Shown here one piece after another: positions 4,322 through 24,074 of a stretch of DNA of 64,000 nt (position 1 is its first letter; each line of letters begins with the position of its first letter). Source of the stretch: Candidatus Nitrospira allomarina (lineage in GTDB: Bacteria; Nitrospirota; Nitrospiria; Nitrospirales; UBA8639). Location: contig NZ_CP116967.1 in the NCBI RefSeq assembly GCF_032050975.1, positions 2,043,001 through 2,107,000 on the forward strand. Reading direction: 5' to 3'. The notes under the pieces are model-generated. The model had not been told where the DNA came from, did no database searches, and saw only the letters and a program-made list of their open reading frames with translations. The translations under genes and the position numbers were made by a program.

Positions 4322-5311
4322 ATGAGTCTTCCGGGATGGCAGAGGTTTCATCATTCCTTCAGGAGAATCCTGCGTATGGTCAATTTATCTGAACAACCGG
4401 TAAGCGCGAGAGGTGAGATGGGGGCCTTGTGGCTGGATCTGCCTGATGCGGAGCAGGAGGCTGTATCACGAGCCGCTCGGTATCCTTCGCACTATCCCAG
4501 GATGGCCAAGGAAATGATCACGGAGGGGTTTACCATTTTAAAGGGGGTGATTGAGCCCGGTCTTTGCGATGCGGTGGTCAATGATTATCAACGATACCTT
4601 GAAACCAATAAGGGATATGCCGATCAGTATATCGATGCCAAGGGGCGCCATCACAGACTGGTAAATTTCCATATGTCCTCCGAGAATGCCATGAAAATCG
4701 GATGTCACGATGAAATTATGAGGGCGTTAGATTATCTCTTCGGGTATAAAGCCGGCATTTATACGTCGTTAACCTTTGAATATGGCACCGAGCAGCCCAT
4801 CCATCGTGATGCCCCTTTTTTTCATACCTTTCCTGTCAACTATTTTGTTGGCGCCTGGTGTGCTTTGGAAGACATAGAGCCCGATGCCGGCCCATTGATG
4901 TATGTGCCTGGAGGTCATCGATTTCCCTGTGATCAGCATGCGATCTATAAACGGGTTCGTAATGAAAACCCTGGTCAGCCGGATGACTGGTTGGTGCGCC
5001 ATGCTCTCGAAGCCTATTATGGGGAAGTGATGGCCCGATCAGGAGCCATCGGAGCAACGAAGCAGGCTGTGTTGCAAAAGGGCGATGTCGCCATTTGGCA
5101 TCCTCAACTGCCTCACGGTGGTGCCCCTGCAGTCAATCCACAGAGGACTCGGCGAAGCGTGGTATTTCATTGCGCCCCGGAGACGTTGCAGGTCTATCAG
5201 CACGATGTCTTTTTTCAGTTTGAGGACCCCGGGTTTCCTCCACCACGTTATGCCTTCGGATCCTATCAGGGCCGGAATTATGCTCTCGCAGGGGAAACGG
5301 CATTTCAATAG
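4322..5311 (+). CDS. Phytanoyl-CoA dioxygenase (PhyH) family protein
   Basis: A non-haem Fe(II)/2-oxoglutarate oxygenase of 329 residues. The iron-binding facial triad is visible: H161 and D163 in the HRDAPFFHT stretch, and H265 in PHGGAPAVN, with a downstream arginine pair expected to bind 2-oxoglutarate. It starts 37 bases after the methyltransferase. An internal ATG at 4378 is an alternative start. PhyH proteins in polysaccharide clusters hydroxylate or otherwise oxidise small molecules or sugars; the substrate here is unknown. A second, decayed PhyH fragment lies at 12368-12778 in the same cluster, but it belongs to a different subgroup. Confidence 0.85.
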   Translation: MSLPGWQRFHHSFRRILRMVNLSEQPVSARGEMGALWLDLPDAEQEAVSRAARYPSHYPRMAKEMITEGFTILKGVIEPGLCDAVVNDYQRYLETNKGYADQYIDAKGRHHRLVNFHMSSENAMKIGCHDEIMRALDYLFGYKAGIYTSLTFEYGTEQPIHRDAPFFHTFPVNYFVGAWCALEDIEPDAGPLMYVPGGHRFPCDQHAIYKRVRNENPGQPDDWLVRHALEAYYGEVMARSGAIGATKQAVLQKGDVAIWHPQLPHGGAPAVNPQRTRRSVVFHCAPETLQVYQHDVFFQFEDPGFPPPRYAFGSYQGRNYALAGETAFQ

Positions 5312-10135: not shown

Positions 10136-10150
10136 TATGTGGAGGATTCG

Positions 10151-11179
10151 ATGATCATCCGCGCGCGGGCGCCTCTTCGGCTTGGCCTGGCGGGCGGTGG
10201 GACAGATGTGTCGCCCTATTGTGATTTGTATGGCGGTTGTGTGCTCAATGCCACGATTGATCGATATGCCTATGCGGTCCTGGAGGTGTTGACAGGCAAT
10301 AAGGTGCAGTTTTGTTCTGCTGATCGACAGCATTTTAGTGAGTATCAGTTGGGCGAATCCATTCCACGCAATGGATGTGTCGATTTACAGCGAGCCGTCT
10401 ATCTGTACATGGTCAAGCAGTTTAATGAAGGACGGCCGTTGCCTGTGAAAGTTACTACCTACTGCGATGCTCCTGTAGGGTCTGGGCTAGGATCCTCCTC
10501 AACTCTGGTCGTGGCGATGATTAAAGCCTTTGCGGAATTGCTGAACGTCCCGCTTGACGATTACGCGTTGGCTCATTTGGCGTTTAGGCTTGAGCGGGTT
10601 GATTGTGGTCTGCAAGGTGGGAGACAGGATCAATATGCCGCGACATTTGGGGGGTTTAATTTTATTGAGTTTTATGCAGACAATCGGGTGATCGTTAATC
10701 CCTTGCGTATCAAAAACTGGATCATCTGTGAGCTGGAGGCCTCATTAGTGCTTTTTTTTACTGGTGTGTCCAGATCTTCCGCAAAGATCATCAGTGATCA
10801 GAGTACTAATGTTGAGGCTGGCACTGACTTGGCGCTATCTGCCATGCATGCCATGAAGCGTGAGGCCTGTACGATGAAGGAAAGTCTGTTGAAAGGCGAT
10901 TTCACCGGACTCGTTGAGTCCATGCGTGAGGGATGGGTCAGCAAGAAGCGTTCAGCCAAGAGTGTGTCCAACGCACATATTGATGAAATCTATGAATCCG
11001 CTGTCAAGGCCGGAGCCTTGGCCGGGAAGGTATCCGGTGCTGGCGGAGGAGGATTTATGATGTTTTTTGTCCCACCGGAAAAACGCATGGAAGTAATTTT
11101 TGCGTTAAAAAAATTCTCCGGACAAGTCAGTAACTGTCATTTTACCAAATATGGTATGCAAGGTTGGAAGATAGATTGA
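10151..11179 (+). CDS. hddA: GHMP kinase, D-glycero-D-manno-heptose 7-phosphate kinase-like
   Basis: 342 residues from ATG 10151, which has GGAGG (10141-10145) five bases upstream; a GTG at 10139 is in frame but overlaps that site. The N-terminus PLRLGLAGGGTDV and the ATP loop PVGSGLGSSS (residues 108-117) are GHMP-kinase signatures, and GKVSGAGGGGFM is the C-terminal glycine loop. The overall pattern matches HddA, which makes heptose 1,7-bisphosphate on the way to GDP-heptose. An HddC-like nucleotidyltransferase gene lies at 11423, which supports this. No isomerase (gmhA) or phosphatase (gmhB) gene is in the window. Related GHMP sugar kinases remain possible. Confidence 0.75.
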   Translation: MIIRARAPLRLGLAGGGTDVSPYCDLYGGCVLNATIDRYAYAVLEVLTGNKVQFCSADRQHFSEYQLGESIPRNGCVDLQRAVYLYMVKQFNEGRPLPVKVTTYCDAPVGSGLGSSSTLVVAMIKAFAELLNVPLDDYALAHLAFRLERVDCGLQGGRQDQYAATFGGFNFIEFYADNRVIVNPLRIKNWIICELEASLVLFFTGVSRSSAKIISDQSTNVEAGTDLALSAMHAMKREACTMKESLLKGDFTGLVESMREGWVSKKRSAKSVSNAHIDEIYESAVKAGALAGKVSGAGGGGFMMFFVPPEKRMEVIFALKKFSGQVSNCHFTKYGMQGWKID

Positions 11180-11422
11180 ATTGAATGGTGTGGAGAACGG
11201 CAGATCGGGGTTGAACTCTTTCAATGGTTGTTTGAAAAAACCGAATGTGTTGGTGAGATAAATTGATGATGTACTTAGTCCGAACATCGACAGGCAGGGA
11301 TGGCGAGTGTTTGGGTTGATGCATATTCAACTGAATTATTCCGTGAGATGCTGAGTCGCTGATTTGTCTGCAACGGGGTTATCCTCCTCTGGCATGTATT
11401 TGATTTATGTGTAAGGACAGGA

Positions 11423-12148
11423 GTGATTTATTTGAATCAAGTGGGAATCAGAAAGGCCATTGTTCTGGCTGGGGGACGCGGCGAAAGACTTCAATCTGTC
11501 CTCCCCGATCTTCCTAAACCCATGGCGCCTGTTAAAGGCCGGCCATTTTTGGAGTATATTCTCGATAAACTTGTCGATGCTGGGCTGACCGAAGTCATTA
11601 TATCGGTTGGGTATAAGGCGGAAGTTATTAAAGCGCATTTTGGGCAGGCTTACCGCTCACTTCAAATCAAATATTCAAGTGAAAGCTATCCTTTGGGAAC
11701 AGGAGGAGCGATGGCTTTGGCGCTAAAAGGCGATGAGTCTTCTCCAGCTTTGGTCCTTAATGCCGACACGCTTGTTGACATCGATTATCCTGCCCTGATG
11801 GCCTGGTATGCCCAGACCCCAACTCGGGTCGCGATAGTCCTTCGGCATGTTCCGGATGTGAGTCGGTATGGTGCTGTCATGCTCCTGGGAGAACGGGTCG
11901 TAGAGTTTCAGGAAAAGGGTCAGGAGGGCCCAGGCTTAGTAAATGCCGGGGTGTACATTGTTGAATCTCAAATCTTTTCCCAATATGGAAGTGGAGATCA
12001 CTTTTCCTTTGAGACGGATATCCTCCAACCGTATTGTCGAGAGTTGCAGCCTCGCGCATTCATCACGACAGGATATTTTATTGATATCGGCACGCCAAGC
12101 GACTATGAACGCGCTCAGAGGGAAGTGATTTTTACTCGTGCGAACTGA
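11423..12148 (+). CDS. hddC: Sugar-1-phosphate nucleotidyltransferase, HddC-like
   Basis: About 241 residues. The nucleotidyltransferase signature IVLAGGRGERL is followed by the lysine-containing LPKPMAPVKGRPFLEY. Acidic metal ligands are near LVLNADTLVDID. This resembles D-glycero-alpha-D-manno-heptose 1-phosphate guanylyltransferase and the related RmlA/GlmU-like family. The start is uncertain: GTG 11423, TTG 11432 and GTG 11441 are all in frame, and the purine-rich ACAGGAG at 11416-11422 fits TTG 11432 best. The 243 bases after hddA hold no gene. The substrate is inferred from the neighbour. Confidence 0.7.
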   Translation: MIYLNQVGIRKAIVLAGGRGERLQSVLPDLPKPMAPVKGRPFLEYILDKLVDAGLTEVIISVGYKAEVIKAHFGQAYRSLQIKYSSESYPLGTGGAMALALKGDESSPALVLNADTLVDIDYPALMAWYAQTPTRVAIVLRHVPDVSRYGAVMLLGERVVEFQEKGQEGPGLVNAGVYIVESQIFSQYGSGDHFSFETDILQPYCRELQPRAFITTGYFIDIGTPSDYERAQREVIFTRAN

Positions 12149-12367: not shown

Positions 12368-12778
12368 ATGGTCGGATTCCGTTTTCATCAGGGTTATGCT
12401 TATTGGTTTGGAATGGGGAATGTGTGTCCGGATATGGCTACGGCTCTCATTGCTGTTGATCCGACGATCAGGGAAAATGGGTGTTTGTTAATTCTCGAGG
12501 GGTCTCATAAGATGGGCAGGATTGACCCTGTGTTTCATGATGAGGTGCCTGACAGGGGTGTTTGTCAGAACCGCCTGGCTGTTTTTGAAAAGCGCTTACC
12601 AGATGTATGCGTGGATTGAATCGCGGAAAATGTCGTGATGGTTCTTTGTAATACCCTGCATGGTTCCAAGGATAAGGTGTCTCCCCATTCCAGAATCGCT
12701 TTAATTGGTTGGTATATTTCACATCAAATAAACCGTATAAGTCGGCAGGAGCGCAATCTCTTCTATCAGGTACAATAA
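12368..12778 (+). pseudogene. Decayed PhyH-family dioxygenase fragment
   Basis: Residues 1-83 read like the central part of a PhyH dioxygenase (FHQGYAYWFGMGN, DMATALIAVDP, ENGCLLILEGSHKMG). The iron motif HxD is HQG here, so the metal-binding aspartate is lost. A TGA at 12617-12619 stops the frame, yet the same frame goes on with the family's C-terminal pattern (VLCNTLHGSKDKVSPHSR, then IALIGWYI) to TAA 12776-12778. Upstream, TAA at 12356 closes the frame and the usual first 100 or so residues are missing. It is therefore truncated, point-mutated and interrupted. It probably cannot make an active enzyme. Confidence 0.75.
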
Positions 12779-12974: not shown

Positions 12975-13211
12975 ATGAAACATTTAAGGAGTTTTCTCGC
13001 AATTAGTATCATTCTAATAGTGTTCGGATTTGAAAGTTCGGCACAGGCTTACCTTGATCCCGGTACCGGGAGTATGGTGTTGCAGCTCTTGTTGGGCGGC
13101 ATCGCCGGCGCCGTGGTGATTCTCAAATTGTACTGGAGACGATTTGTCGGATTATTTCGTGGAAATGCTCGAGAAGAATCCGAACATTCCTCTTCCGAAG
13201 ATCAGAAGTAA
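12975..13211 (+). CDS. Small YLDPGTGS-motif membrane protein
   Basis: 78 residues. A signal peptide (hydrophobic 8-22, AQA at 23-25) would leave a mature protein starting YLDPGTGSM at residue 26. A second hydrophobic stretch (about 33-52, rich in G, A, L, V) is followed by the basic KLYWRR and an acidic tail. Proteins with this motif often sit in polysaccharide clusters beside a methyltransferase and a sulfatase-like gene, as here; that association is from memory and the function is not known to me. Its stop TAA shares a base with the ATG of the next gene (13211), so translation is probably coupled. Confidence 0.7.
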   Translation: MKHLRSFLAISIILIVFGFESSAQAYLDPGTGSMVLQLLLGGIAGAVVILKLYWRRFVGLFRGNAREESEHSSSEDQK

Positions 13212-14068
13212 TGAATGGTGTCCAACCCCTTCCAGGATCCTTCCGTGATCCCAGCGGGAGCGTATATCAGTTTGAGGGGCGCATCCTTAGGACGGTGAAT
13301 GAATGTTTTTCTGAAGATTTCGATTTTGTCACTTCAACCGGATTATTTAAATCGCTTGCGACCGAAGGTCTGCTGCTTCCGTTTGAGGTCATGTCTTCAG
13401 ACGTTCTGGGGCTCTCAGATCCAAAGCCTCGGTATGTTTTGGAAACGCCCAGGCTCCCCTTTATCTCATATCCGTATGAATGGTCATTTCCGGCACTGAA
13501 GGCCGCCGCACTCCTGCATTTACGAATTCATTTGCAATCATTGGAAGTCGGTGTCACACTTTCCGATGCCTCGGCTTACAATATTCAATTTCAGGGAAAT
13601 CACCCCGTTTTTATTGATCATCTTTCCTTTAGGCGCTATCAATCTGGTGAAATGTGGGTTGGTCATCGTCAATTTTGCGAACAATTCCTGAACCCTCTGT
13701 TACTTCGTGCGTTTTTTGGCATATCTCATAACGCCTGGTATCGGGGAACCCAGGAAGGAATTGGAACTGGGGAGATCCGGAGATTACTGAAGTGGCGACA
13801 CTACTTGAAGTGGAATGTCTTGACTCATGTGGTTTTGCAAGATCTTTTCCAAAAAACCTCGACGCAAAACACCAAAAGCCTTCAGGATGATACGTTAGCC
13901 GGGGCTTCGTTTCCTCTTTCTTCTTTCAAAGGTATGCTGAAAAAAATGTTTGACTGGATTAGCCAGTTGAACCCTCTCAATAAAGGAGAAAGCACGTGGG
14001 GTGCCTATGATAGAACCTGTAGTTATTCCTCAATGGAAATCAAATCCAAAAAAGCAATTCATTCTTGA
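13211..14068 (+). CDS. Glycan-cluster methyltransferase, N-terminal half (frameshifted)
   Basis: 285 residues, the first part of what should be a protein of about 465 residues. It contains the family's LSDASAYNIQF and HPVFIDHLSF patterns. Near its end it reads STWGAYDRTCSYS, which normally leads directly into the SAM-binding domain. Instead, after the A6 tract at 14048-14053, the frame ends in TGA. Removing one A gives a smooth join (SKKQFILEF) to the frame of the next feature. It is coupled to the YLDPGTGS gene. On its own this half lacks the SAM site. Confidence 0.75.
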   Translation: MNGVQPLPGSFRDPSGSVYQFEGRILRTVNECFSEDFDFVTSTGLFKSLATEGLLLPFEVMSSDVLGLSDPKPRYVLETPRLPFISYPYEWSFPALKAAALLHLRIHLQSLEVGVTLSDASAYNIQFQGNHPVFIDHLSFRRYQSGEMWVGHRQFCEQFLNPLLLRAFFGISHNAWYRGTQEGIGTGEIRRLLKWRHYLKWNVLTHVVLQDLFQKTSTQNTKSLQDDTLAGASFPLSSFKGMLKKMFDWISQLNPLNKGESTWGAYDRTCSYSSMEIKSKKAIHS

Positions 14069-14612
14069 ATTTGCCCAAACGGTCCAGCCCACACTGTTAT
14101 GGGATTTTGGATGCAATACCGGTGAATATTCAGAAACGGCGTTGAATGGCGGGGCCAGAAACGTCGTAGGGTTTGACTTTGATCAAGGTGCGTTGGATGG
14201 TAGTTACCATCGAGCAATCGAGAGGGGTCTCTTCTTTCAGGCTCTGTTTATGGATGCCGCTAATCCGAGTCCAAATCAAGGGTGGAATGGTCACGAGCGG
14301 GAAAGTCTTCAGTCCCGGGCTTCAGCGGATGCCATCCTCGCCTTGGCTCTGGTTCATCACTTAGCTATTGCCAGGAATATTCCGTTGGGTCAGGTTGTCA
14401 ATTGGCTGATCACACTTGCCCCACAGGGGGTCATCGAATTTGTTCCGAAAAATGATCCTATGGTGCAAGAATTGTTAAGTCTACGCCAGGATATTTTCCC
14501 TGATTACACCGCCGACCATTTCATGGCCATTTTGGAAAAAAAGGCAGTGATCATTAAGAATGAAATTGTCTCAAAAAGCGGACGAGTGTTGGTGTGGTTT
14601 AAGCGAATATAA
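14001..14612 (+). CDS. Glycan-cluster methyltransferase, C-terminal SAM domain (frameshifted)
   Basis: Class I SAM methyltransferase domain: LLWDFGCNTGEYSE (motif I), VVGFDFDQGAL (motif II), then ADAILALALVHHLAIARN and APQGVIEFVPKNDPMVQ. This is the natural continuation of the 13211-14068 reading frame, displaced by +1 at the A6 tract. The homologous part begins at about 14054; the codons before that overlap the N-terminal half out of frame. It could start independently at ATG 14007, but there is no ribosome site at a normal distance. I read the two as one broken gene. Confidence 0.75.
   Translation: MPMIEPVVIPQWKSNPKKQFILEFAQTVQPTLLWDFGCNTGEYSETALNGGARNVVGFDFDQGALDGSYHRAIERGLFFQALFMDAANPSPNQGWNGHERESLQSRASADAILALALVHHLAIARNIPLGQVVNWLITLAPQGVIEFVPKNDPMVQELLSLRQDIFPDYTADHFMAILEKKAVIIKNEIVSKSGRVLVWFKRI
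14048..14053 (+). other. A6 tract at frameshift site 1
   Basis: Six A after TCC. Five A would join the 13211 and 14001 frames exactly at the expected place in the methyltransferase. The same arrangement occurs at 45051-45056. Confidence 0.75.
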
Positions 14613-14783
14613 TTCAGGGCTTTTTACCCTGGTTGAATGTACGTGAGCAATTAAACCATCATGAAAAATCTGAGATGTCGCTGCAAAAGGCCTTGAATAT
14701 TTCCGCACGCTTTCCTCAAAGACACTTTTCATCCTCACCATAAACATTTGAATTTGCGCTAATCTCTGTCATCAGGGACCGAA

Positions 14784-17393
14784 ATGACCACTTCGTCAGA
14801 TGAGCTAAATATAACTGGTATTCGTATGGTCCTTGTTGAATTTTTGCACCTGTTTGCTCTCGTTGGTTTTGCCGTTGCTCAGCCGCTCTATGATCTTCTT
14901 GGGCAGAATCCGGAGTTTTTTGTTTCTTATAAGGCCGGTCCAGAGCTTATCATCGGTATGGTTTTCGTACTTTCGTTGGGGATGGCATCAGGCCTCGTGC
15001 TGCTTGAACTTGCCGCCTTGTCGGTTGGCAGGCGAGTGTGGAATAGCCTGCATTTAGTCTTTGTCTTTGGCCTTGCGTTCCTCACAGTCCTACCTCCGGT
15101 GCAGCGATTGGAGGATGGATCTGATTTCTTGATTGTCGGATTTGCATTACTGATTGGTTTTCTCTTTTCGGTCCTTTATGTTCGCTGGCAGGCGGTCCGG
15201 CTGTTTCTCACGGTGCTTTCACCCGTCGTGGTGGCATTTCCACTGTGGTTTTTGTTGTTTACTCCCGTCGGTCGTCTTGTCATGCCGGAAGCCATTAAAG
15301 CACAGGCGGACATTGAGATTAACAATCCTGTCCCGGTTGTGCTCATTGTGCTGGATGAATTCAACATCACCGCGTTATTGGATGCCGAAGGTCGGATCGA
15401 TCCGGTGCGTTTTCCTAACTTTGCCGCTCTCGCCGCACAAAGCTATTGGTTTCCTAATGCGGTGGCGACGTATGTAGAAACCGCAGCTGCCGTGTCTGGA
15501 ATTTTGACAGGGCGGCAACCAAGAGCTGGTGTTCGACTCAACCCGACGGCAACAGATCATCCTCAAAATTTGTTCACACTGTTGGGGGACCGATATGCTC
15601 TTAATGTGGTGGAGTCCTTGACAAGTCTTTGTCCCCATACACTATGCAAGGAAGAAGATGGTGATGCGGGTTCGTCCATTCGTTACAAGTCCTTTTTTGC
15701 AGATCTGGCAGTGATATATTTACATATTATTGCCCCGCCACAAATAGGAAAACAATTACCACCGCTCCATGCTCAATGGACCGGTTTCGGCGAGGAATTG
15801 TTGAAAAATGGGATTCTTGGGCAGAATGAGAGTGATATCCATCTCGATCTTGTCACGGGGGGAAAAAAATCAAGAGAGTCGCAAATCACTTCTTTCCTTT
15901 CTCAAATCAAACAAACTTCAAGCCCTGTCCTTCATTTTCTCCACGTCATCCTGCCTCATACGAAGTATGAATATTTGGCGTCTGGTCAGCAATATTTAAA
16001 CAAGGAACGATTCATTCCTGTCGGGTGGATCGATGGCCCGGGTTGGGGGGGGAGGTGGATTGGAAAAGAATCCTTGATTCTCACGGCGTACCACCAATAC
16101 CTCCAGCAAATTGGATATGTTGATCAGTTCCTCGGGAAATTGCGAAGCTCACTTGAAAGGGCAGAGCTTTTCGATAAGGCGCTCATTATTGTTACCGCAG
16201 ATCATGGTGTTTCCTTTCAGCGTGGATTATCCATGCGTGAGGTACAAAAAGGAAATGAGAGCGACATTCTAAAAGTTCCCATGTTCGTCAAGCTTCCTGG
16301 GCAACGTGAGGGAACCATTCGTGAGCGGCTTGTCAGCGGAATTGATGTGTTGCCAACCATCGCCGATTTACTTGACTTTAAGATTCCCAGGGAAATAGAT
16401 GGGTATTCCATGTTGGACAATGAAATCCCACCGCGGGACGAGATAGATTTTCTTGGAGTAGGAAAAATTAAATCCCAGGATTTGAACGGATTTCCTCGTC
16501 TCAAGTGGCAGGTCGATCATTTTGGAGAGCACACGGCACTCGACCGACTTGTGCCAAAAGGACCGGCTTCAAAGTTGATTGGACAAGAACTTGGCGATTT
16601 GGATATTAGTCACTCAACTTCCCTAAAATATATAAATGAAAGTCCTCATCAATTCGGTCAGGGGAATCTTGAAAAAAGAGTAATCCCTGCCCTTTTTAGC
16701 GGACAAATTATTGGCACGAGTAGACGAAACATTCCGATTGCTATTTCCCTTAATGAACGAATATGGGCTACTACCCAGGCATCCTTATGGGCTGGAAAGC
16801 GGAATTATTTTTCTGTTTTATTTCCCCCTTCTGCTTTCCGGTCAGGCGAGAACCAAGTGAGGGTTTTTCTGATTGGAGATCATGATACACAATTAACTCC
16901 CATACCCTTGGCAAGCCAGGGGACTTTGAGCGATGAGCAGACAATTATCCGTTTGAAACATGAAGTTTCCGGGCAATCAAAACTAGTGTTTTCCGGTGAG
17001 CGGGAAATCTTCATCGATGTGGGTGAAAAACATCTCACTGGGAATCTGGATCGTGTTCTTCTTTCCGGGGAGTCAATTGTTGTGGAGGGATGGGCTGCTG
17101 ATCTTGAAAAGAATCAACCGGCTGAAGAAGTTTTCATTTTCACAAACGGAAAATTAACGGCTAGCACAGAAGTTGGAATCTCCAGACAAGATGTCGTGGA
17201 GGCTCATCAACAGAAGGCATTGTTCCACAGTGGTTTCCGGATTAAAATCCCGATAGACGTTCTCAAGCCTTATCCAAGTGATATAAAATTAATTGTTGCC
17301 TCATTAAGCAACCGAGCATGGGAATTTTCCTTTTCTCCAAAGCAAATGGATTTCATCCGCTCTACGCTGGAGCAAGAGGATTTTAGTCAATGA
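14784..17393 (+). CDS. Membrane sulfatase-like protein (alkaline phosphatase superfamily)
   Basis: 869 residues. About five membrane helices lie in residues 12-165. A periplasmic sulfatase-type domain follows: metal-binding VLDEFN near residue 189, the nucleophile region with VETAAAVSGILTG, and the metal-binding TADHG near 472. The last 200 residues form an extra domain of no family I recognise. There is no CxPxR sulfatase signature, so a phosphoglycerol-, phosphoethanolamine- or other group-transfer activity is as likely as sulfate ester cleavage. It lies downstream of the YLDPGTGS and methyltransferase genes and probably modifies the polysaccharide outside the cytoplasmic membrane. Confidence 0.8.
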   Translation: MTTSSDELNITGIRMVLVEFLHLFALVGFAVAQPLYDLLGQNPEFFVSYKAGPELIIGMVFVLSLGMASGLVLLELAALSVGRRVWNSLHLVFVFGLAFLTVLPPVQRLEDGSDFLIVGFALLIGFLFSVLYVRWQAVRLFLTVLSPVVVAFPLWFLLFTPVGRLVMPEAIKAQADIEINNPVPVVLIVLDEFNITALLDAEGRIDPVRFPNFAALAAQSYWFPNAVATYVETAAAVSGILTGRQPRAGVRLNPTATDHPQNLFTLLGDRYALNVVESLTSLCPHTLCKEEDGDAGSSIRYKSFFADLAVIYLHIIAPPQIGKQLPPLHAQWTGFGEELLKNGILGQNESDIHLDLVTGGKKSRESQITSFLSQIKQTSSPVLHFLHVILPHTKYEYLASGQQYLNKERFIPVGWIDGPGWGGRWIGKESLILTAYHQYLQQIGYVDQFLGKLRSSLERAELFDKALIIVTADHGVSFQRGLSMREVQKGNESDILKVPMFVKLPGQREGTIRERLVSGIDVLPTIADLLDFKIPREIDGYSMLDNEIPPRDEIDFLGVGKIKSQDLNGFPRLKWQVDHFGEHTALDRLVPKGPASKLIGQELGDLDISHSTSLKYINESPHQFGQGNLEKRVIPALFSGQIIGTSRRNIPIAISLNERIWATTQASLWAGKRNYFSVLFPPSAFRSGENQVRVFLIGDHDTQLTPIPLASQGTLSDEQTIIRLKHEVSGQSKLVFSGEREIFIDVGEKHLTGNLDRVLLSGESIVVEGWAADLEKNQPAEEVFIFTNGKLTASTEVGISRQDVVEAHQQKALFHSGFRIKIPIDVLKPYPSDIKLIVASLSNRAWEFSFSPKQMDFIRSTLEQEDFSQ

Positions 17394-17814
17394 CCAGGGC
17401 AATAGTGGCACATCCAGTCATTAGCCATAACAAAGCCAAGTTATAGCTAAACCGGTACTCCATAAACACATTTTATTACGTGAGGAACAGTCCCGCTTTT
17501 GATTGAGTGCGATGCTGGGCGCCTGACTAGTCGAGCCCCTTTCGGATTGTCAGAGAAGGGTCTTCACGCTGGAATGGGTGGGGCATGTTTTGTTAATTCG
17601 TCTGGTCTATATTTTATGGAAGATACATTTGGTTTGGTCCGTCTAGTTCTGGAAACCAAAAGCTTGTTTCCGCTGCGATGGGTGTTCATTAATCATGGTC
17701 AGGGGATTGGACCGATCTCCCCCACATACTTCCTGGAGTATTCTTTTGAGGATTATTAAATTGACCATGATTATCCGAAATTAATGCTAAGTTCTCCCTC
17801 CCGGGGGCGAGCTT
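17394..17814. other. 421-base gap with an unrecognised 86-codon frame
   Basis: An open frame at 17499-17759 (+, TTG start) has no ribosome site and I do not recognise it. Its middle (VRLVLETKSLFPLRW) could be a remnant of a membrane acyltransferase, since MBOAT genes often precede SGNH genes, but the match is too weak to call. Confidence 0.3.
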
Positions 17815-19047
17815 GTGGTGGAACCCTTGAAGCAAATAAAACAGAGCTTGGCCCTTGTTGTTGGATCGACAATTATTGCGATTTTCATAATGGAGGCCTT
17901 ACTGCGTGGTATTGGAATTCCATCTACCCTGAATTCAGGATGGGGGTGGGCAAATTCTGCGGGTAGAAAATTATCTAAATATGATGCGTTAACAACCAAT
18001 CAATTTGGATATCGAGGACAAAGCATTCACTATCAGACCGAGGACTATGTGGTGTTGCTTGTGGGCGACAGCCAGGTCGAAGCGTATGCTGGCCGGCCGG
18101 AACATATGCCTGAACAGTTTCTTCAGGAAATTCTAACTCGTCAGTTGCATCAACCAGTCAAAGTGTTTTCCCTTGCCTCTTCGGGGTGGGGTCAGGATCA
18201 ACAGCTACTGGCCATACGAGAATATTTCAAGTTGTATAGGGCAGACTTAGTTTTGGTGTGGGCAACCCCAGGAAATGATTTTTGGGAAAATGCCTTTCCT
18301 GATAGAAGTGCGACCCAGCAGGCAGGACACTTAAAGCCGACCTTTAGATTGGTCGATCAGAAGCTGTATGGCCCTTATTTCCCATCTGGATCCTATTTAC
18401 ATAATAGTGCCATTGCCCAATTAATAGAGATGGTGATCGCAAACTTACAAGATGAAACATTAGAGCAACGCATTCTTCGTCGTTGGCTTCAAGAAATGCC
18501 ATCTTCCCATAAAACCCACAAAGCCGAAAATGAACATGCCTGTGAGGGACTGACAGTTATAAATCAAGGAGAGTTTTTTAACACGATATTTGAACTCAAC
18601 GATAAGATTGGTTACACCATAAGATCCGGACAGGATCTCCTGAACAGCAGGAGTCTCTTTTCTGCCTATATGTTAGATCCATCCAGGCGAGATGAATATC
18701 TGGTTGCGATTACTAAAAGTTTATTGCGGCATGTAAAAGAGGAAGTCGAAAAGCATCATTCAAAATTCCTTGTTTTTTATCCTGTTCGAGAAGATTTTGA
18801 AAAGCGCGCAATGCAAATGGTTAAATGCGTGGCGGATTCTCAAGGGAATTTTTTTAGAGTATTCTTCGACTATAAAGGCGGGTTGCAAAGGGTGATTTCT
18901 TCTGATGACCTTGTGATCTTTGATTTGCCAGGTGGGAACGAAATTGTGGTTTCACCAAGTGATAGGCATTTAAATGATTTTGGAAATGAATTAGCTATGA
19001 AAAAACTGAGTCTGATTTTGATAGAGCGTTTCCTCGTCAATCGATGA
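17815..19047 (+). CDS. SGNH/GDSL-like protein with N-terminal membrane anchor
   Basis: 410 residues. An N-terminal helix (about 10-28) anchors it. The nucleophile block VVLLVGDSQVEAYAG is near residue 84, with a following SLASSGWGQDQQL stretch and LVLVWATPGNDFWEN as later blocks, which fits an SGNH hydrolase or O-acyltransferase partner. A DxxH near the C-terminus (SPSDRHLNDFGN) supplies a plausible catalytic pair. GTG 17815 is the likely start; the ribosome site is weak. The likely role is acetylation or deacylation of the polysaccharide in the periplasm. Direction and substrate are unknown. Confidence 0.7.
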   Translation: MVEPLKQIKQSLALVVGSTIIAIFIMEALLRGIGIPSTLNSGWGWANSAGRKLSKYDALTTNQFGYRGQSIHYQTEDYVVLLVGDSQVEAYAGRPEHMPEQFLQEILTRQLHQPVKVFSLASSGWGQDQQLLAIREYFKLYRADLVLVWATPGNDFWENAFPDRSATQQAGHLKPTFRLVDQKLYGPYFPSGSYLHNSAIAQLIEMVIANLQDETLEQRILRRWLQEMPSSHKTHKAENEHACEGLTVINQGEFFNTIFELNDKIGYTIRSGQDLLNSRSLFSAYMLDPSRRDEYLVAITKSLLRHVKEEVEKHHSKFLVFYPVREDFEKRAMQMVKCVADSQGNFFRVFFDYKGGLQRVISSDDLVIFDLPGGNEIVVSPSDRHLNDFGNELAMKKLSLILIERFLVNR

Positions 19048-19437: not shown

Positions 19438-20355
19438 ATGACGAATTCAGAATCAAATGAAAGTATGCTGAATACGCCGAAGCTATGCTCCATTATCATT
19501 GTGACCTATAATTCCAGCTCCTGCATCGGTACCTGTTTAAGTCCTTTACTCAACATTTCTGATGTTGAGCTGGTGGTTGTGGATAATGATTCGAAGGATG
19601 GAACTGCAGCTAAATTGGAGAGAGAATTTCCGCAGGTTACCCTTATTGCCCTTCACGATAATATTGGTTTTGGGCGTGCGTGTAATATCGGGTTGGCGGC
19701 TTCGAGCGGATCCTTTGCTCTTTTTTTGAACCCGGACACTATTGCGACGGAAAAGGCCATTCGAACCCTTATCCAATTTTATGAGAAGCATCCTCGAGTA
19801 GGAATTGTCGGGGGGCGTCTTGTTGATCCATCGGGCCGGCCTTTGCAATCAATGGGGGATACGCCTTCGTTGACTGGCCTTGTGTTGGATAAGCCGTTGG
19901 CCTGGGTGGCGAAGCGTGTAGGGGCTCGAGGGCTCTTTCGTCGAGTGGTAGGCTGGTGTTCGGCAAAATTTTGTCTCCCTCATGAAGCGGAGCCTGTGGC
20001 ATGGGTATCCGGCGCTTTTCTTTGTTGCCGGCGTTCAATCTGGAATGCCATTGGCGGCTTTGATGAAAAGTTTTTTTTGTATTATGAAGATGTTGATCTG
20101 TGCCTCAGGGCCACGCAGGCTGGTTGGGAGGTGTGGCACGTTCCTGAGGCAGTTGTAGAGCATCAGTCCGGAGCTTCCTTTGGGGGCGATCTTTCTAAAC
20201 AAAAAGAAATTTATTATGTTAATCAATATTATTTTTTCCGGAAACATTTTGGTCGTCCGGTTGCATGGGCCTTGTGGGTTTTTCAGAGTATCTATGCTCG
20301 ACTAGGTCTGTACCGTGGCCTTGGAACCGATCGAATAGGTCGTGCTCTGCTATAG
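19438..20355 (+). CDS. GT2-family glycosyltransferase, rhamnosyltransferase-like
   Basis: 305 residues, GT-A fold. Opening SIIIVTYNSSSCIGTCL, then VVVDNDSKDGT and the donor-metal segment LFLNPDT. A later YYEDVDLCLRA matches the ED motif of WbbL-type transferases. The last 40 residues include a hydrophobic patch (WALWVFQSIYARLGLY) that may sit on the membrane. The gene lies upstream of two GT4 genes and ends 50 bases before the next start. A rhamnosyl donor is plausible because the window encodes the whole dTDP-rhamnose pathway, but this is inference. Confidence 0.8.
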   Translation: MTNSESNESMLNTPKLCSIIIVTYNSSSCIGTCLSPLLNISDVELVVVDNDSKDGTAAKLEREFPQVTLIALHDNIGFGRACNIGLAASSGSFALFLNPDTIATEKAIRTLIQFYEKHPRVGIVGGRLVDPSGRPLQSMGDTPSLTGLVLDKPLAWVAKRVGARGLFRRVVGWCSAKFCLPHEAEPVAWVSGAFLCCRRSIWNAIGGFDEKFFLYYEDVDLCLRATQAGWEVWHVPEAVVEHQSGASFGGDLSKQKEIYYVNQYYFFRKHFGRPVAWALWVFQSIYARLGLYRGLGTDRIGRALL

Positions 20356-20404
20356 TGTCTATTCTAAGAATCACAGAAATTTTACTTGGGAAATTGGGGA
20401 CGTA

Positions 20405-21487
20405 ATGCGGGTCCTCCAAATTGTTGCCGATGGGAAACCAGGTGGAGGAACCACGCATGTTCTACAGATTCTCAAAGGCTTACGGCATGCCGTTTCCTTT
20501 CATCTCATTACGGAAGAACAATCATATTTAATGAAAAAAGCCGATGCTCTTGGCATTCCCTGTCAGGGGCTTCGGTTTTTCATGAGTCGGCTCAATCCTG
20601 TCATCCCTTTCCAGCTTCGAGCGTTGGTGATGGCCCTTCAACCTGATCTGGTTCATGTCCATGGTGGGCGTGCAGGGTTTTTCTTTACGGTATCTCTCTT
20701 GAAAGTCCCGATGGTCTATACCATCCATGGATTTCATTTTATTGAAAAGTCACCAGGAATTCGCTGGATGGCGTTAATGGCGGAACGTTGGAATTTGCGA
20801 CGTGCGTGTCATTCGATTTTTGTGTCGAAATATGATGTGGGTCTTGCAGAAAATTTTCAAGTATTATCAGCTTGTGCTAAAAGGTCAGTCATCTATCCCG
20901 GACTTTCTTTGGGAAACCTTCCACCGCCCTCGCCTCAGGGGCTCCTGCATATTGGATTTATCGGACGATTAGAATATCAGAAGGATCCTCTCCTGTTTGT
21001 AGAGATGATGGAGTTCTTGTCTGAGTATTCGGCCACGATTGTTGGTGATGGGGCCTTGGCTCCGATGATCAAACAGGAAATAGCCAGGCGGGGGTTAGGT
21101 GGACGGGTTCACATGATGGGGGAATTGTCTCATGGAGAGGCTCTGGAAATTCTCGCTACTTTCAGCGTGGTTATTTTAACCTCCAGGTGGGAAGGCCTGC
21201 CGGTTTTGGTCTTAGAATCTATGGGCATGGGAGTTCCGGTTGTGAGCATGAATGTGAGTGGATTGGAAGAAATCATTCATGACGAGGTAAACGGAATGTT
21301 GGTAGAGAAAAGGAGCGGAAAAGATCTTGCTGAAAAGGTCAAAATAATCACAAACAATGAGGATCTCAGGATCTCCCTCATCAAGAATGCCCAGGAGACT
21401 ATACAGGAAAAATTCTCCATCGAAACCATGATGGGTTCGATTCTGGAAATATATCAGGAAATGTCTGCCTCACATGCAGGTCATTGA
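20405..21487 (+). CDS. GT4-family glycosyltransferase
   Basis: 361 residues from ATG 20405 (VLQIVADGKPGGG). In-frame starts as far up as 20342 would overlap the GT2 gene and have no ribosome site. GT-B fold with the N-terminal VHVHGGRAGFF stretch and a C-terminal donor domain: IGFIGRLEYQKDP, then the EX7E segment SRWEGLPVLVLESMGMGVPVV. Its stop (21485-21487) abuts or overlaps the next gene, so they are translated together. It adds one sugar to the lipid-linked repeat unit. The donor is unknown. Confidence 0.85.
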   Translation: MRVLQIVADGKPGGGTTHVLQILKGLRHAVSFHLITEEQSYLMKKADALGIPCQGLRFFMSRLNPVIPFQLRALVMALQPDLVHVHGGRAGFFFTVSLLKVPMVYTIHGFHFIEKSPGIRWMALMAERWNLRRACHSIFVSKYDVGLAENFQVLSACAKRSVIYPGLSLGNLPPPSPQGLLHIGFIGRLEYQKDPLLFVEMMEFLSEYSATIVGDGALAPMIKQEIARRGLGGRVHMMGELSHGEALEILATFSVVILTSRWEGLPVLVLESMGMGVPVVSMNVSGLEEIIHDEVNGMLVEKRSGKDLAEKVKIITNNEDLRISLIKNAQETIQEKFSIETMMGSILEIYQEMSASHAGH

Positions 21488-21495
21488 AGGTCCAA

Positions 21496-22680
21496 GTGAA
21501 AGTTGCGCTGGTTCATGATTGGCTGACAGGTATGCGAGGGGGTGAGCGGTGTCTTGAAGCGTTGTGTGAATTGTTCCCTGATGCGCCAATTTATACACTG
21601 TTCCATGTGAAAGGCAGTGTGTCGCAGACGATTGAGCGGCATCCCATTATTTCCAGCTTTCTTAATCGAGTCCCATTTGCAAAGAGTCGATATCGGTATT
21701 TGCTCCCTTTCTTTCCTTCAGCCATCCAGCGATTGGAATTCCATCAGTATGATTTAGTGGTCAGTTCGAGCCATTGCGTGGCCAAGGGCATTCGAGTGCC
21801 TCGCGAGACCTGTCATATTTCCTACGTTCATACCCCCATGCGGTATATCTGGGATGGATTTGATACCTATTTTGGTAACACAGGAATTTGGGATTTTGGC
21901 AAGCTGGGCATGGGCCTTTTTCGAACGCGACTTCAGCGGTGGGATGTGGAATCGAATGCCGATGTGAGTTGTTTTATTGCCAATTCGCAAAACGTAGCAG
22001 GACGAATTGCACGCCAGTATGGAAGGGCGGCTTGTGTGGTCTACCCTCCTGTTGATTGGCAGACCTTTCACGTGTCGCATCACCATGAAGGGTTTTACTT
22101 GATGGTCACGGCCTTTGCGCCCTACAAAAAAGTCGAGCTGGCCATTGCTGCGGCCAATGAGCTAGGGCTTCCATTGAAAATTATTGGGCAGGGACAAGAT
22201 GAGAAACGCTTGAGGCGAATGGCCGGTCCAAGTATCGAATTTCTTGGCTGGCAGCCAGACCATCGTGTCAGAAAATTTTACAGCCGGTGCCTGGCCGTTC
22301 TCTTCCCCGGTGAAGAGGATTTTGGTATTGTGCCTTTGGAGGCCATGGCGGCTGGGAAACCGGTAATTGCCTATGGAAAGGGTGGAGCTCTTGAAACAAT
22401 CGTCCCTCTCAATCCTATGCATAAGCCAGGCGAAAATCATTTAGAACATGGTCTTCATGGAAGTGGATCTTCTCCTGTTCCAACGGGGGTCTTTCACTAT
22501 GAACAGTCGGTCCAAGCCATAATTGAAAGCATTCAGTTGTTCACGCAGCACCTCACAGATTTCAATCCGGATGCAATTCGGGCACATGTTGAACCGTTCG
22601 ATCGTTCTCATTTTAAGCAACGGATGCAGCAGGTGATCATGTCTCGTTATCGCGAATTCCGTCGTACCCCACCATGTTGA
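21496..22680 (+). CDS. GT4-family glycosyltransferase, WbaZ-like
   Basis: About 395 residues. VALVHDWLTGMRGGERCLE is the typical opening of mannosyl/rhamnosyl transferases of the WbaZ type; CHISYVHTPMRYIWD is also typical. The donor site has the segment FPGEEDFGIVPLEAMAAGKPV. The start is either TTG 21484, which overlaps the preceding stop, or GTG 21496; I chose the latter because the conserved part begins right after it. The 3' end overlaps the next gene by seven bases. Confidence 0.8.
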   Translation: MKVALVHDWLTGMRGGERCLEALCELFPDAPIYTLFHVKGSVSQTIERHPIISSFLNRVPFAKSRYRYLLPFFPSAIQRLEFHQYDLVVSSSHCVAKGIRVPRETCHISYVHTPMRYIWDGFDTYFGNTGIWDFGKLGMGLFRTRLQRWDVESNADVSCFIANSQNVAGRIARQYGRAACVVYPPVDWQTFHVSHHHEGFYLMVTAFAPYKKVELAIAAANELGLPLKIIGQGQDEKRLRRMAGPSIEFLGWQPDHRVRKFYSRCLAVLFPGEEDFGIVPLEAMAAGKPVIAYGKGGALETIVPLNPMHKPGENHLEHGLHGSGSSPVPTGVFHYEQSVQAIIESIQLFTQHLTDFNPDAIRAHVEPFDRSHFKQRMQQVIMSRYREFRRTPPC

Positions 22681-24074
22681 AACGCCACAGTGAATTCTTA
22701 AAAAATCTGCTCTTCCTTTCGGACTTGGTTGTGATATGCGTGTGTTGGGTGGTCGCCTACTTCATTCGTTTTTCAGTGCCCCTGTTTCCCATCACCAAAG
22801 GCATCCCTCCTATTGACCCGTATCTCTGGCTCCTTTTTCCAATTGTCGCCGTATGGGGAATTTGTTTCTATTCATTTAATCTGTATCGCCCTCGTAGAAT
22901 GGGCTCTCATCTGGCGGAATTTGTGGACATTGCCAAGGCCAATACGCTGAGTATTCTGATCCTGGTCGCATTGACCTTTTTCTCGAAGCCGTTTGAATTT
23001 TCCCGTTTGGTGATCATGTATTTTTGGTTATTGAATCTGGTGGTGTTGGGCTTTTCCCGTATGGTCTTTCGGGAAATTCTCAGGGTTTTCCGGCGAATGG
23101 GATACAACCAACGCCAGGTGGTTATTATCGGCGCAGGAAAACTTGGGCAGCGGGTTGGCGATACGCTCAAAATGCATCCCGAACTTGGCCTCCAGGTTCG
23201 CGGGTATTTGACCAGGAATGCCGAGAAGGTTGGTCAAGTATTGGACGGGACACCCGTTATCGGAACGTTTGACCAGGCGGCTGATATTTTAACCAGCCAG
23301 GTGGACATCGTATTTTTGTGTCTGCCTCCGGAAGTGGAATGTGAAGCTGAGGGACTGATGAAAATCCTGTCTGCCACCACAGCAGGAGTGAAGATCATTC
23401 CCTCCATTTATGAGTTTGTGACGTTGCGGGCAGAAGCTGAAATGTTTGAAGGCCTTCCTATTATTACTCTGCAAGGATCTCCTCTTTACGGGTGGAATCT
23501 GCTTCTGAAGCGAATGGTTGATATCTGTGGTGCCGCCGTGGCCCTGGTGGTGGCCTCACCAATCGCATTGATGATTGCGGTACTCATTAAGCTCACCTCT
23601 CCAGGTCCAGTTTTCTACCGCCAGACTCGTGTTGGCCTCGATGGGAAATCGTTCAATATTGTCAAAATCCGGACTATGCGTATGGATGCCGAAGAAAAGA
23701 CGGGTCCCGTCTGGGCCAAAGCCCATGACCCACGCAGGACGCCCATCGGGACGTTTCTGCGGCGGACCAGTTTGGATGAATTGCCGCAATTCTGGAATGT
23801 TTTAAAGGGAGAGATGAGTATTGTGGGGCCGCGTCCCGAGCGACCGGAGTTTATCGAGAAATTCCGGTCCCAGATTCCCCAATATAACCTGCGTCACACT
23901 ATGAAAGCCGGAATTACGGGTTGGGCCCAAATTAATGGATTGCGAGGGAATACCTCTTGGGAAAAACGTTTAGCCTACGACATGTATTACATCGAGCATT
24001 GGTCCTTATGGCTGGATGTAAAAATTATGATTATGACCCTTTGGAAGGGGTTGATCCATCGGGAGGCGTATTAG
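22674..24074 (+). CDS. Undecaprenyl-phosphate sugar-1-phosphate transferase (priming enzyme)
   Basis: 466 residues of the WcaJ/PssY kind. Four to five membrane helices (about residues 12-30, 46-66, 83-100, 108-125 and a re-entrant helix near 280-300). A nucleotide-binding CoA_binding_3-type region begins at QVVIIGAGKLGQRVG. The C-terminal catalytic domain carries VKIRTMRMDAE, LDELPQFWNVLKGEMS and GPRPERPEF, then GWAQINGLRGN. It moves a hexose-1-phosphate onto undecaprenyl phosphate to start repeat-unit assembly. It is the last gene of the cluster. Glucose or galactose is the usual sugar. Confidence 0.9.
   Translation: MLKRHSEFLKNLLFLSDLVVICVCWVVAYFIRFSVPLFPITKGIPPIDPYLWLLFPIVAVWGICFYSFNLYRPRRMGSHLAEFVDIAKANTLSILILVALTFFSKPFEFSRLVIMYFWLLNLVVLGFSRMVFREILRVFRRMGYNQRQVVIIGAGKLGQRVGDTLKMHPELGLQVRGYLTRNAEKVGQVLDGTPVIGTFDQAADILTSQVDIVFLCLPPEVECEAEGLMKILSATTAGVKIIPSIYEFVTLRAEAEMFEGLPIITLQGSPLYGWNLLLKRMVDICGAAVALVVASPIALMIAVLIKLTSPGPVFYRQTRVGLDGKSFNIVKIRTMRMDAEEKTGPVWAKAHDPRRTPIGTFLRRTSLDELPQFWNVLKGEMSIVGPRPERPEFIEKFRSQIPQYNLRHTMKAGITGWAQINGLRGNTSWEKRLAYDMYYIEHWSLWLDVKIMIMTLWKGLIHREAY

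Follow-up and report, generated by a model that had tools for sequence, protein, structure and literature searches.

The group of genes at positions 12,975 to 19,047 of the window (the whole 64,000-nucleotide stretch of Candidatus Nitrospira allomarina DNA analyzed here) raises the question of what a small exported membrane protein, a methyltransferase, and a sulfatase-like enzyme might be doing together. A first-pass annotation had grouped these genes with a downstream SGNH-like gene as a system that decorates exported polysaccharide. Our comparative analysis alters the identity of the central enzyme and the extent of the module, and links it to a known set of nodulation genes.

The methyltransferase is encoded by two ORFs on the forward strand. 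The first (13211..14068) covers a kinase-fold domain (residues 1-250) and a linker, and the second (14001..14612) carries a class I SAM-dependent methyltransferase domain whose true coding sequence begins at about 14055. In a DNA alignment with the congeners G010, G002, and G014, the A-run at 14048..14053 (forward strand) contains six bases in the window and five in the intact congeners. Six congeners have a single uninterrupted frame, and the intact protein of locus L002 comprises 466 amino acids. Comparison with G010 gave dN/dS values of 0.19 before and 0.084 after the shift, revealing purifying selection on both halves. Because the congeners are intact with five As and selection continues past the shift, we rejected a two-gene methyltransferase and set aside a programmed frameshift. 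Thus, the window contains one gene split by one extra A, which is either a recent mutation or an assembly error. The methyltransferase sequence annotated downstream of the small gene (13211-14612) is therefore real, but it is a frameshifted single gene rather than a two-part enzyme, and its first 250 residues have a different predicted fold.

This N-terminal half, previously without annotation, is predicted to adopt a protein-kinase fold. As fold searches with the whole protein were swamped by methyltransferases, the domain was folded alone, yielding an AlphaFold model with a pLDDT of 93.5. Its best Foldseek match is RioK1 (E 1.3e-5, prob 1.00), and all 50 VIA structural matches listed are protein-kinase folds with Z 9.3-10.2, values near 10 being evidence for fold and not for function; WbdD is absent from these 50. 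No convincing Pfam family was found for the domain among 81 homologues. Its profile matched no PDB sequence, so the evidence for a kinase consists of the model together with invariant residues. R27, D119, N124, and D136 (forward-strand codons at 13289, 13565, 13580, and 13616) are conserved in 80/80 homologues, including the D119-x4-N124 spacing. Based on the kinase fold and these four residues, we consider the protein a kinase-methyltransferase. The domain may nevertheless be atypical or inactive, because arginine replaces the usual kinase lysine in all 80 homologues and the ion-pair glutamate could not be identified in the kinase domain of this family (PMC9758233). Both features would fit a pseudokinase or scaffold, in which case the methyltransferase alone would be active and would O-methylate a sugar or a lipid; the phosphatase-fold protein would then be an unrelated hydrolase or an eraser of phospho groups. 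However, a scaffold would not need D119, N124, and D136, which are invariant in homologues from several phyla, and we regard this explanation as unlikely.

The methyltransferase half of the window copy shows a weak match to Pfam Methyltransf_12, and the intact congener model matches methyltransferase structures, including WbdD, MePCE, and BCDIN3D, with Z of about 16-18. WbdD is among its best sequence and structure matches, tied with other methyltransferases, and the domain resembles sugar-, N-, and small-molecule methyltransferases as well as phosphate methylators.

Directly upstream of the kinase-methyltransferase lies the gene for the small protein (12975..13211, forward strand; an ORF of 78 amino acids). 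It features a hydrophobic signal-like segment, the residues AQA followed by YLDPGTGS, one more transmembrane helix, and a C-terminal tail. No Pfam or NCBIfam family matched, and a literature search with the literal motif YLDPGTGS found no paper. Of the 83 loci fetched, 76 have a similar ORF, which usually lies immediately before the kinase-methyltransferase gene. An alignment of 29 small proteins has just four invariant residues, namely Y, D, P, and a Q further on, and positions -3 and -1 are small or aliphatic in 29/29. The ORF and its membrane segments thus agree with the first-pass annotation, but the motif is less strict than it proposed. Judged by its sequence, the small protein is a signal-peptide-like transmembrane peptide that is co-inherited with the kinase.

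The third gene (14784..17393, forward strand) encodes an 869-residue membrane protein of the alkaline-phosphatase superfamily (Pfam Sulfatase 5.7e-23; Phosphodiest 3.2e-8). It lacks CxPxR, as noted initially. Its candidate nucleophile is Thr233 (codon at 15480), which aligns with the cysteine of an S1_8A sulfatase. Together with D191, H387, H392, D473, and H474, Thr233 provides the Thr/Ser nucleophile and Asp/His ligands expected of a transferase or hydrolase of this superfamily. In the superfamily alignment, D191, T/S233, and H387 are each conserved in 65/65 and D473 in 63/65 sequences. LtaS, phosphonate monoester hydrolase, and S1 sulfatases share the superfamily (by Pfam/HMMER) and the metal-site residues. 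S1 sulfatases, however, carry a formylglycine nucleophile within CxPxR or SxPxR; the occupation of this position by threonine or serine in the window protein (Thr) and all 65 relatives (Thr/Ser) argues against a classical S1 formylglycine sulfatase. The protein shares superfamily and motifs with NoeB, including a predicted threonine nucleophile and conserved metal-ligand residues, but belongs to another subfamily (about 840-870 amino acids, compared to 553 in NoeB). An alkaline-phosphatase-superfamily membrane protein is found at 61/83 loci, with rare exceptions encoded on the same strand and no more than 600 bp away. Clustering detected no such neighbor at the other 22 loci, some of which are contig ends; at least L098 (and weakly L071) of these match Sulfatase.

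Comparison across genomes showed that the small protein and the kinase-methyltransferase co-occur beyond chance, a test that the first-pass annotation had itself set. They are found together and adjoining in 18/19 kinase-encoding genomes of Nitrospiria (Fisher 3e-18) and in 11/13 of Alphaproteobacteria (Fisher 4e-12). Free-living carriers of the kinase-methyltransferase are widespread and include Nitrospirota, Pelagibacteraceae, and Acidobacteria. Annotated phage records yielded no relative; one is present on each of three IMG/VR contigs. By sequence comparison, the small protein, the kinase-methyltransferase, and the membrane phosphatase-fold enzyme constitute a widespread three-gene operon that includes noeA/noeB.

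The ORF that follows (17815..19047, forward strand) has GDS, PGND, and DRH motifs, read by eye, which make it SGNH/GDSL-like; it gave no SGNH Pfam match. A homologue adjoins the module at only one fetched locus (L019) and in congener G010, and none was seen at G023, G051, G170, or G029. We therefore kept the SGNH-like ORF as a genus-specific neighbor and rejected it as a fourth module member.

In the window, the module is flanked by HddA-like and HddC-like heptose-nucleotide genes (10139..12148, forward strand; NCBIfam NF049969 and NF049965, both below the curated cut-off) and by three glycosyltransferases and a WcaJ-type undecaprenyl-phosphate glucose phosphotransferase (19438..24074, forward strand). 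This placement within a glycosyltransferase/WcaJ cluster also occurs in G010. A census of 120 neighbor genes from 45 loci, a small sample of mechanically called ORFs, contained few polysaccharide genes, and in three Nitrospiria (G023, G051, and G170) the module lies amid unrelated genes. A strict tie to polysaccharide clusters is thus rejected outside the genus: the three genes do recur together, as first proposed, but usually away from such clusters. The operon is mostly autonomous, and its substrate therefore does not have to be the polysaccharide whose genes lie next to the window copy. Glycan decoration remains plausible, although the system differs from the one initially envisaged in its membership, its key enzyme, and its autonomy.

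A natural point of comparison is WbdD of E. coli O9a, a proven kinase-methyltransferase that makes a methyl phosphate on the O antigen (PMC3482155). Similar to the window type, WbdD combines a kinase and a class I methyltransferase in one protein, and it acts at the membrane on an exported polysaccharide. The module might accordingly be read as a chain terminator of the window exopolysaccharide, in which polymerization would end once the non-reducing end has been phosphorylated and methylated; its location in the glycosyltransferase/WcaJ clusters of the window and G010 would fit. However, WbdD has the order methyltransferase-kinase-coiled-coil, whereas the window type begins with the kinase, ends with the methyltransferase, and lacks the coiled-coil region, and thus does not have the domain order of the WbdD family. 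Sequence similarity to WbdD was not detectable in the kinase half. The published description of WbdD includes neither a small nor a phosphatase-fold partner, both constant in the NoeA-type module, and most loci lie away from polysaccharide genes. We consider a chain terminator distinctly improbable.

The closest relatives with a phenotype are encoded by the S. meliloti operon nodL-noeA-noeB (nod box n5). Sinorhizobium NoeA is 44% identical to the intact congener protein at 98% coverage, the kinase residues are identical in NoeA, and the nucleophile and D/H positions are identical in NoeB. A YLDPGTGS gene encoding 71 amino acids, annotated "hypothetical protein," directly precedes noeA, giving the same order of small gene, noeA, and noeB. 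Based on this identity and gene order, we interpret the module as a chromosomal, non-symbiotic noeA-noeB counterpart with an overlooked small gene; combined with the phospho-group mechanism proposed below, this reading has, in our estimate, about an even chance of being correct. Unlike the plasmid-borne nodulation genes of S. meliloti, the window copy is chromosomal, lies inside an EPS cluster, and is frameshifted. Contrary to the initial statement that no described function was known, noeA and noeB belong to the host-range class of nodulation genes (Ardourel 1995, as cited in PMC4053727, PMC9048898, and PMC10945364). As a correlation, failure on many genotypes of Medicago truncatula has been seen in a strain whose noeA is truncated (PMC4053727). 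Our literature search found no activity for any module member, noeA/noeB biochemistry included.

The NoeA/Lani_1194 family itself was already described in 2022 as part of the Legionella pan-kinome (PMC9758233). Like its members, the window type shows full-length similarity to NoeA, a kinase domain followed by a methyltransferase, arginine in place of Lys72, conserved catalytic Asp/Asn/Asp, and conserved neighbors that include an alkaline-phosphatase-fold protein (assigned in the window by sequence family); the same-protein C-terminal methyltransferase is seen in the intact congeners, the window copy being split. Neither the small YLDPGTGS protein nor a glycerophosphotransferase partner appears in the main text of that study, and Lani_1193 may be such a small protein. 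What our analysis adds is the partnership with the small protein and the swap of partners. The kinase fold and the prediction of Lani_1193, Lani_1194, and Lani_1195 as effectors (PMC9758233) could suggest a protein-kinase/methyltransferase signaling or secreted-effector system, as weighed there for the Legionella copies. This appears very improbable, given the broad occurrence in free-living bacteria and the operon shared with membrane enzymes.

Where the kinase is missing, several genomes have the small protein either fused to a TarL/TagF-like glycerophosphotransferase (PF04464) or encoded beside one, together with NoeB-like or YidC-fused phosphatase-fold proteins. No such transferase lies beside the module in the window. 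The theme common to both types of loci would be phosphate transfer at the membrane. That the alternative partner is a phosphotransferase family also speaks against a pseudokinase, which finds some further support in the fact that methylated Nod factors of other rhizobia are made by other enzymes (PMC4053727).

We favor a phospho-group mechanism in which the operon probably modifies an exported glycan or lipid with a (methyl-)phosphate-type group, by a putative chemistry. At the cytosolic face, a glycolipid or lipid-linked glycan would receive a phosphate on one of its hydroxyls from the kinase domain. The methyltransferase domain would then methylate this product, the simplest target being the phosphate just added, as in WbdD. 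The small protein, whose YLDPGTGS would be exposed on the periplasmic surface of the inner membrane, might dock the soluble enzyme at the membrane and link it to the periplasmic side, which is pure inference. In the periplasm, the phosphatase-fold enzyme would act on the exported molecule through its threonine, either transferring the phospho group or removing it.

More tentatively, and with some doubt, AY[LV][DG]PG-x-G peptides may mark a general trans-membrane group-transfer relay. In it, a membrane carrier would be charged with a group by a swappable cytosolic enzyme, which could be a NoeA-type kinase-methyltransferase, a TarL/TagF-like glycerophosphotransferase, or, for the AYVGPG variant, a sulfotransferase that has an arylsulfotransferase as its counterpart. 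The small peptide would connect this charging step with the outer face, and a periplasmic enzyme would hand the group over to its acceptor. On this view, NoeA/NoeB would work by a phospho-group relay, not through direct Nod-factor methylation.

These results tie noeA/noeB, reported as host-range genes in 1995, to an operon found in many phyla, and single out as their closest partner a third S. meliloti operon gene that has no annotation beyond hypothetical. They also lead to a specific prediction, namely that an exported glycan or lipid bears a phospho or methyl-phospho mark. Should a common relay underlie the partner swap, it would represent a general bacterial route for moving charged groups over the inner membrane.

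In the complete 4.55 Mb genome that contains the window, the module and an SGNH-like ORF (17815-19047) lie between heptose-nucleotide genes on one side and a glycosyltransferase/WcaJ block on the other. The module comprises a small protein of 78 aa (12975-13211), two overlapping ORFs (13211-14068 and 14001-14612), and an 869-aa membrane protein (14784-17393). The two ORFs had been taken for a two-part methyltransferase in the first-pass annotation. However, congeners carry a single open frame spanning the sequence of both, the window has one additional A in a run of six (14048-14053), and dN/dS against the congener G010 is 0.19 upstream of the shift and 0.084 downstream. They are thus one kinase-methyltransferase gene, broken recently or misassembled. 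Among the collected contigs, the window's nearest relative with a name is a Nitrospirota MAG, at 88% identity in the kinase-methyltransferase. Separately, a phytanoyl-CoA dioxygenase gene fragment (PF05721, E 2.4e-6; 12368-12722) sits in the gap that separates the HddC-like gene from the small gene, where G010 has just ~240 bp; a complete PhyH gene occurs at 4322-5311.

The C-terminal half of the kinase-methyltransferase is a class I methyltransferase, while the N-terminal half (81 homologues) had no convincing Pfam family match. An AlphaFold2 model of this half, computed from an alignment of 81 sequences, reached a pLDDT of 93.5. Its top Foldseek match was RioK1 (E 1.3e-5, prob 1.00). The 50 matches listed by VIA-align were without exception protein-kinase folds (Z 9.3-10.2; 187-205 residues superposed at rmsd 3.7-4.9 A). 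R27, D119-x4-N124, and D136 are invariant in 80/80 sequences. The N-terminal half is accordingly modeled as a kinase-fold domain.

A tblastn search against plasmids returned 65 records, mostly Sinorhizobium plasmids (~44% identity over 98%), several of them annotated as 'nodulation protein NoeA', and the window protein almost certainly belongs to the NoeA family. In S. meliloti, the gene order is nodL, a 71-aa 'hypothetical protein' (MPIIMSVVGFLILSIVPAHAYLDPGTGS...), noeA, and noeB; this hypothetical-protein gene, flanked by nodL and noeA on pSymA (L109, 5754-5969), encodes the YLDPGTGS peptide and has no other annotation. The family of the Legionella protein Lani_1194 was already described as a NoeA-homologous kinase-methyltransferase in which Arg replaces Lys72, with Lani_1193 (65% of neighbourhoods) and the NoeB-like Lani_1195 (38%) as neighbours (PMC9758233). 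A strain with truncated noeA fails on many Medicago truncatula genotypes, a correlation (PMC4053727).

Small-protein-like ORFs occur at 76/83 loci, typically no more than tens of bases from the enzyme start. Among 29 aligned small proteins, the invariant Y is preceded by A (28) or S (1), position -3 is A, V, or S, and a hydrophobic helix follows YLDPGTGS. This sequence pattern fits a predicted signal-peptidase cleavage that would leave a single helix with YLDPGTGS at its periplasmic end.

Alkaline-phosphatase-superfamily proteins of three subfamilies occur in the module neighbourhood at 61/83 loci; among 63 such genes, 58 lie at <600 bp and 58 on the same strand. In 65 aligned sequences, D191, H387, H392, and D473 are near-invariant, and the nucleophile position (T233) holds Thr (62) or Ser (3), opposite the catalytic Cys of one S1_8A sulfatase. 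The proposed sulfatase-superfamily membership holds, but the nucleophile residue sets the enzyme apart from formylglycine sulfatases. NoeB, which belongs to a different subfamily, shares these conserved residues.

The small and kinase-methyltransferase genes lie side by side, divergently in a single genome (G399), and co-occur above chance, as anticipated: in the window's class (146 genomes), a strong kinase-methyltransferase match is present in 19, the small protein in 22, and both in 18 (2.9 expected; p 3e-18), and in that of Rhizobium (240 genomes) the counts are 13, 20, and 11 (1.1 expected; p 4e-12), although these p-values overstate independence because genomes within a class are related. 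The suggested link to polysaccharide clusters was borne out only in part. Placement inside an EPS cluster is a trait of this genus; 120 neighbours outside the module (45 loci) are heterogeneous, each polysaccharide-type family being matched by only two or three, and unrelated genes surround the module in G023, G051, and G170. Pelagibacteraceae genomes (L081, L083, L089, L091) carry the kinase-methyltransferase, mostly with the small protein, and three IMG/VR contigs (L016-L018) encode homologues of this enzyme. In a Legionellales locus (L050, 6588-13389), the kinase-methyltransferase gene adjoins those for an acyltransferase-SGNH protein and an ATP-sulfurylase/APS-kinase.

We also surveyed genomes that have the small protein and lack the kinase. 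In four (G040, G150, G287, G371), the YLDPG[ST]G peptide forms a fusion with a member of the PF04464 glycerophosphotransferase family, whose profile matches TarL in PDB (E 1e-7); in three others (G204, G368, G377), the PF04464-family enzyme is a neighbour. Among 240 alphaproteobacterial genomes, this enzyme occurs in 8, including 7 of the 9 that have the small protein but lack the kinase; it is adjacent in only 5. Phosphatase-fold proteins beside it are NoeB-like (L113, L114) or YidC-linked (L099, L100, L111); those checked at kinase-less loci keep the D and T positions, while the H positions vary somewhat. At the YidC-linked loci, YidC-family (PF02096) sequence beside or fused to an alkaline-phosphatase-like domain adjoins the YLDPG[ST]GS-glycerophosphotransferase fusion. 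Small exported proteins of an AYVGPG type (L102, L103, L116, L118, L120-L125) resemble the YLDPGTGS family in layout, and in several genomes their genes adjoin sulfotransferase and arylsulfotransferase-like genes.

The best-supported reading, which has about an even chance of being right, is that the NoeA-type kinase-methyltransferase would start a phospho-group modification in the cytosol, which the phosphatase-fold enzyme would complete or edit outside. The analysis establishes folds (by model for the former enzyme, by sequence for the latter), residues, gene order, and co-occurrence, whereas activity and substrate are inferred. The product may be a methyl phosphate, and the small protein may serve for docking. 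The window module is of a known NoeA-type kind; the partner pattern around it is new.
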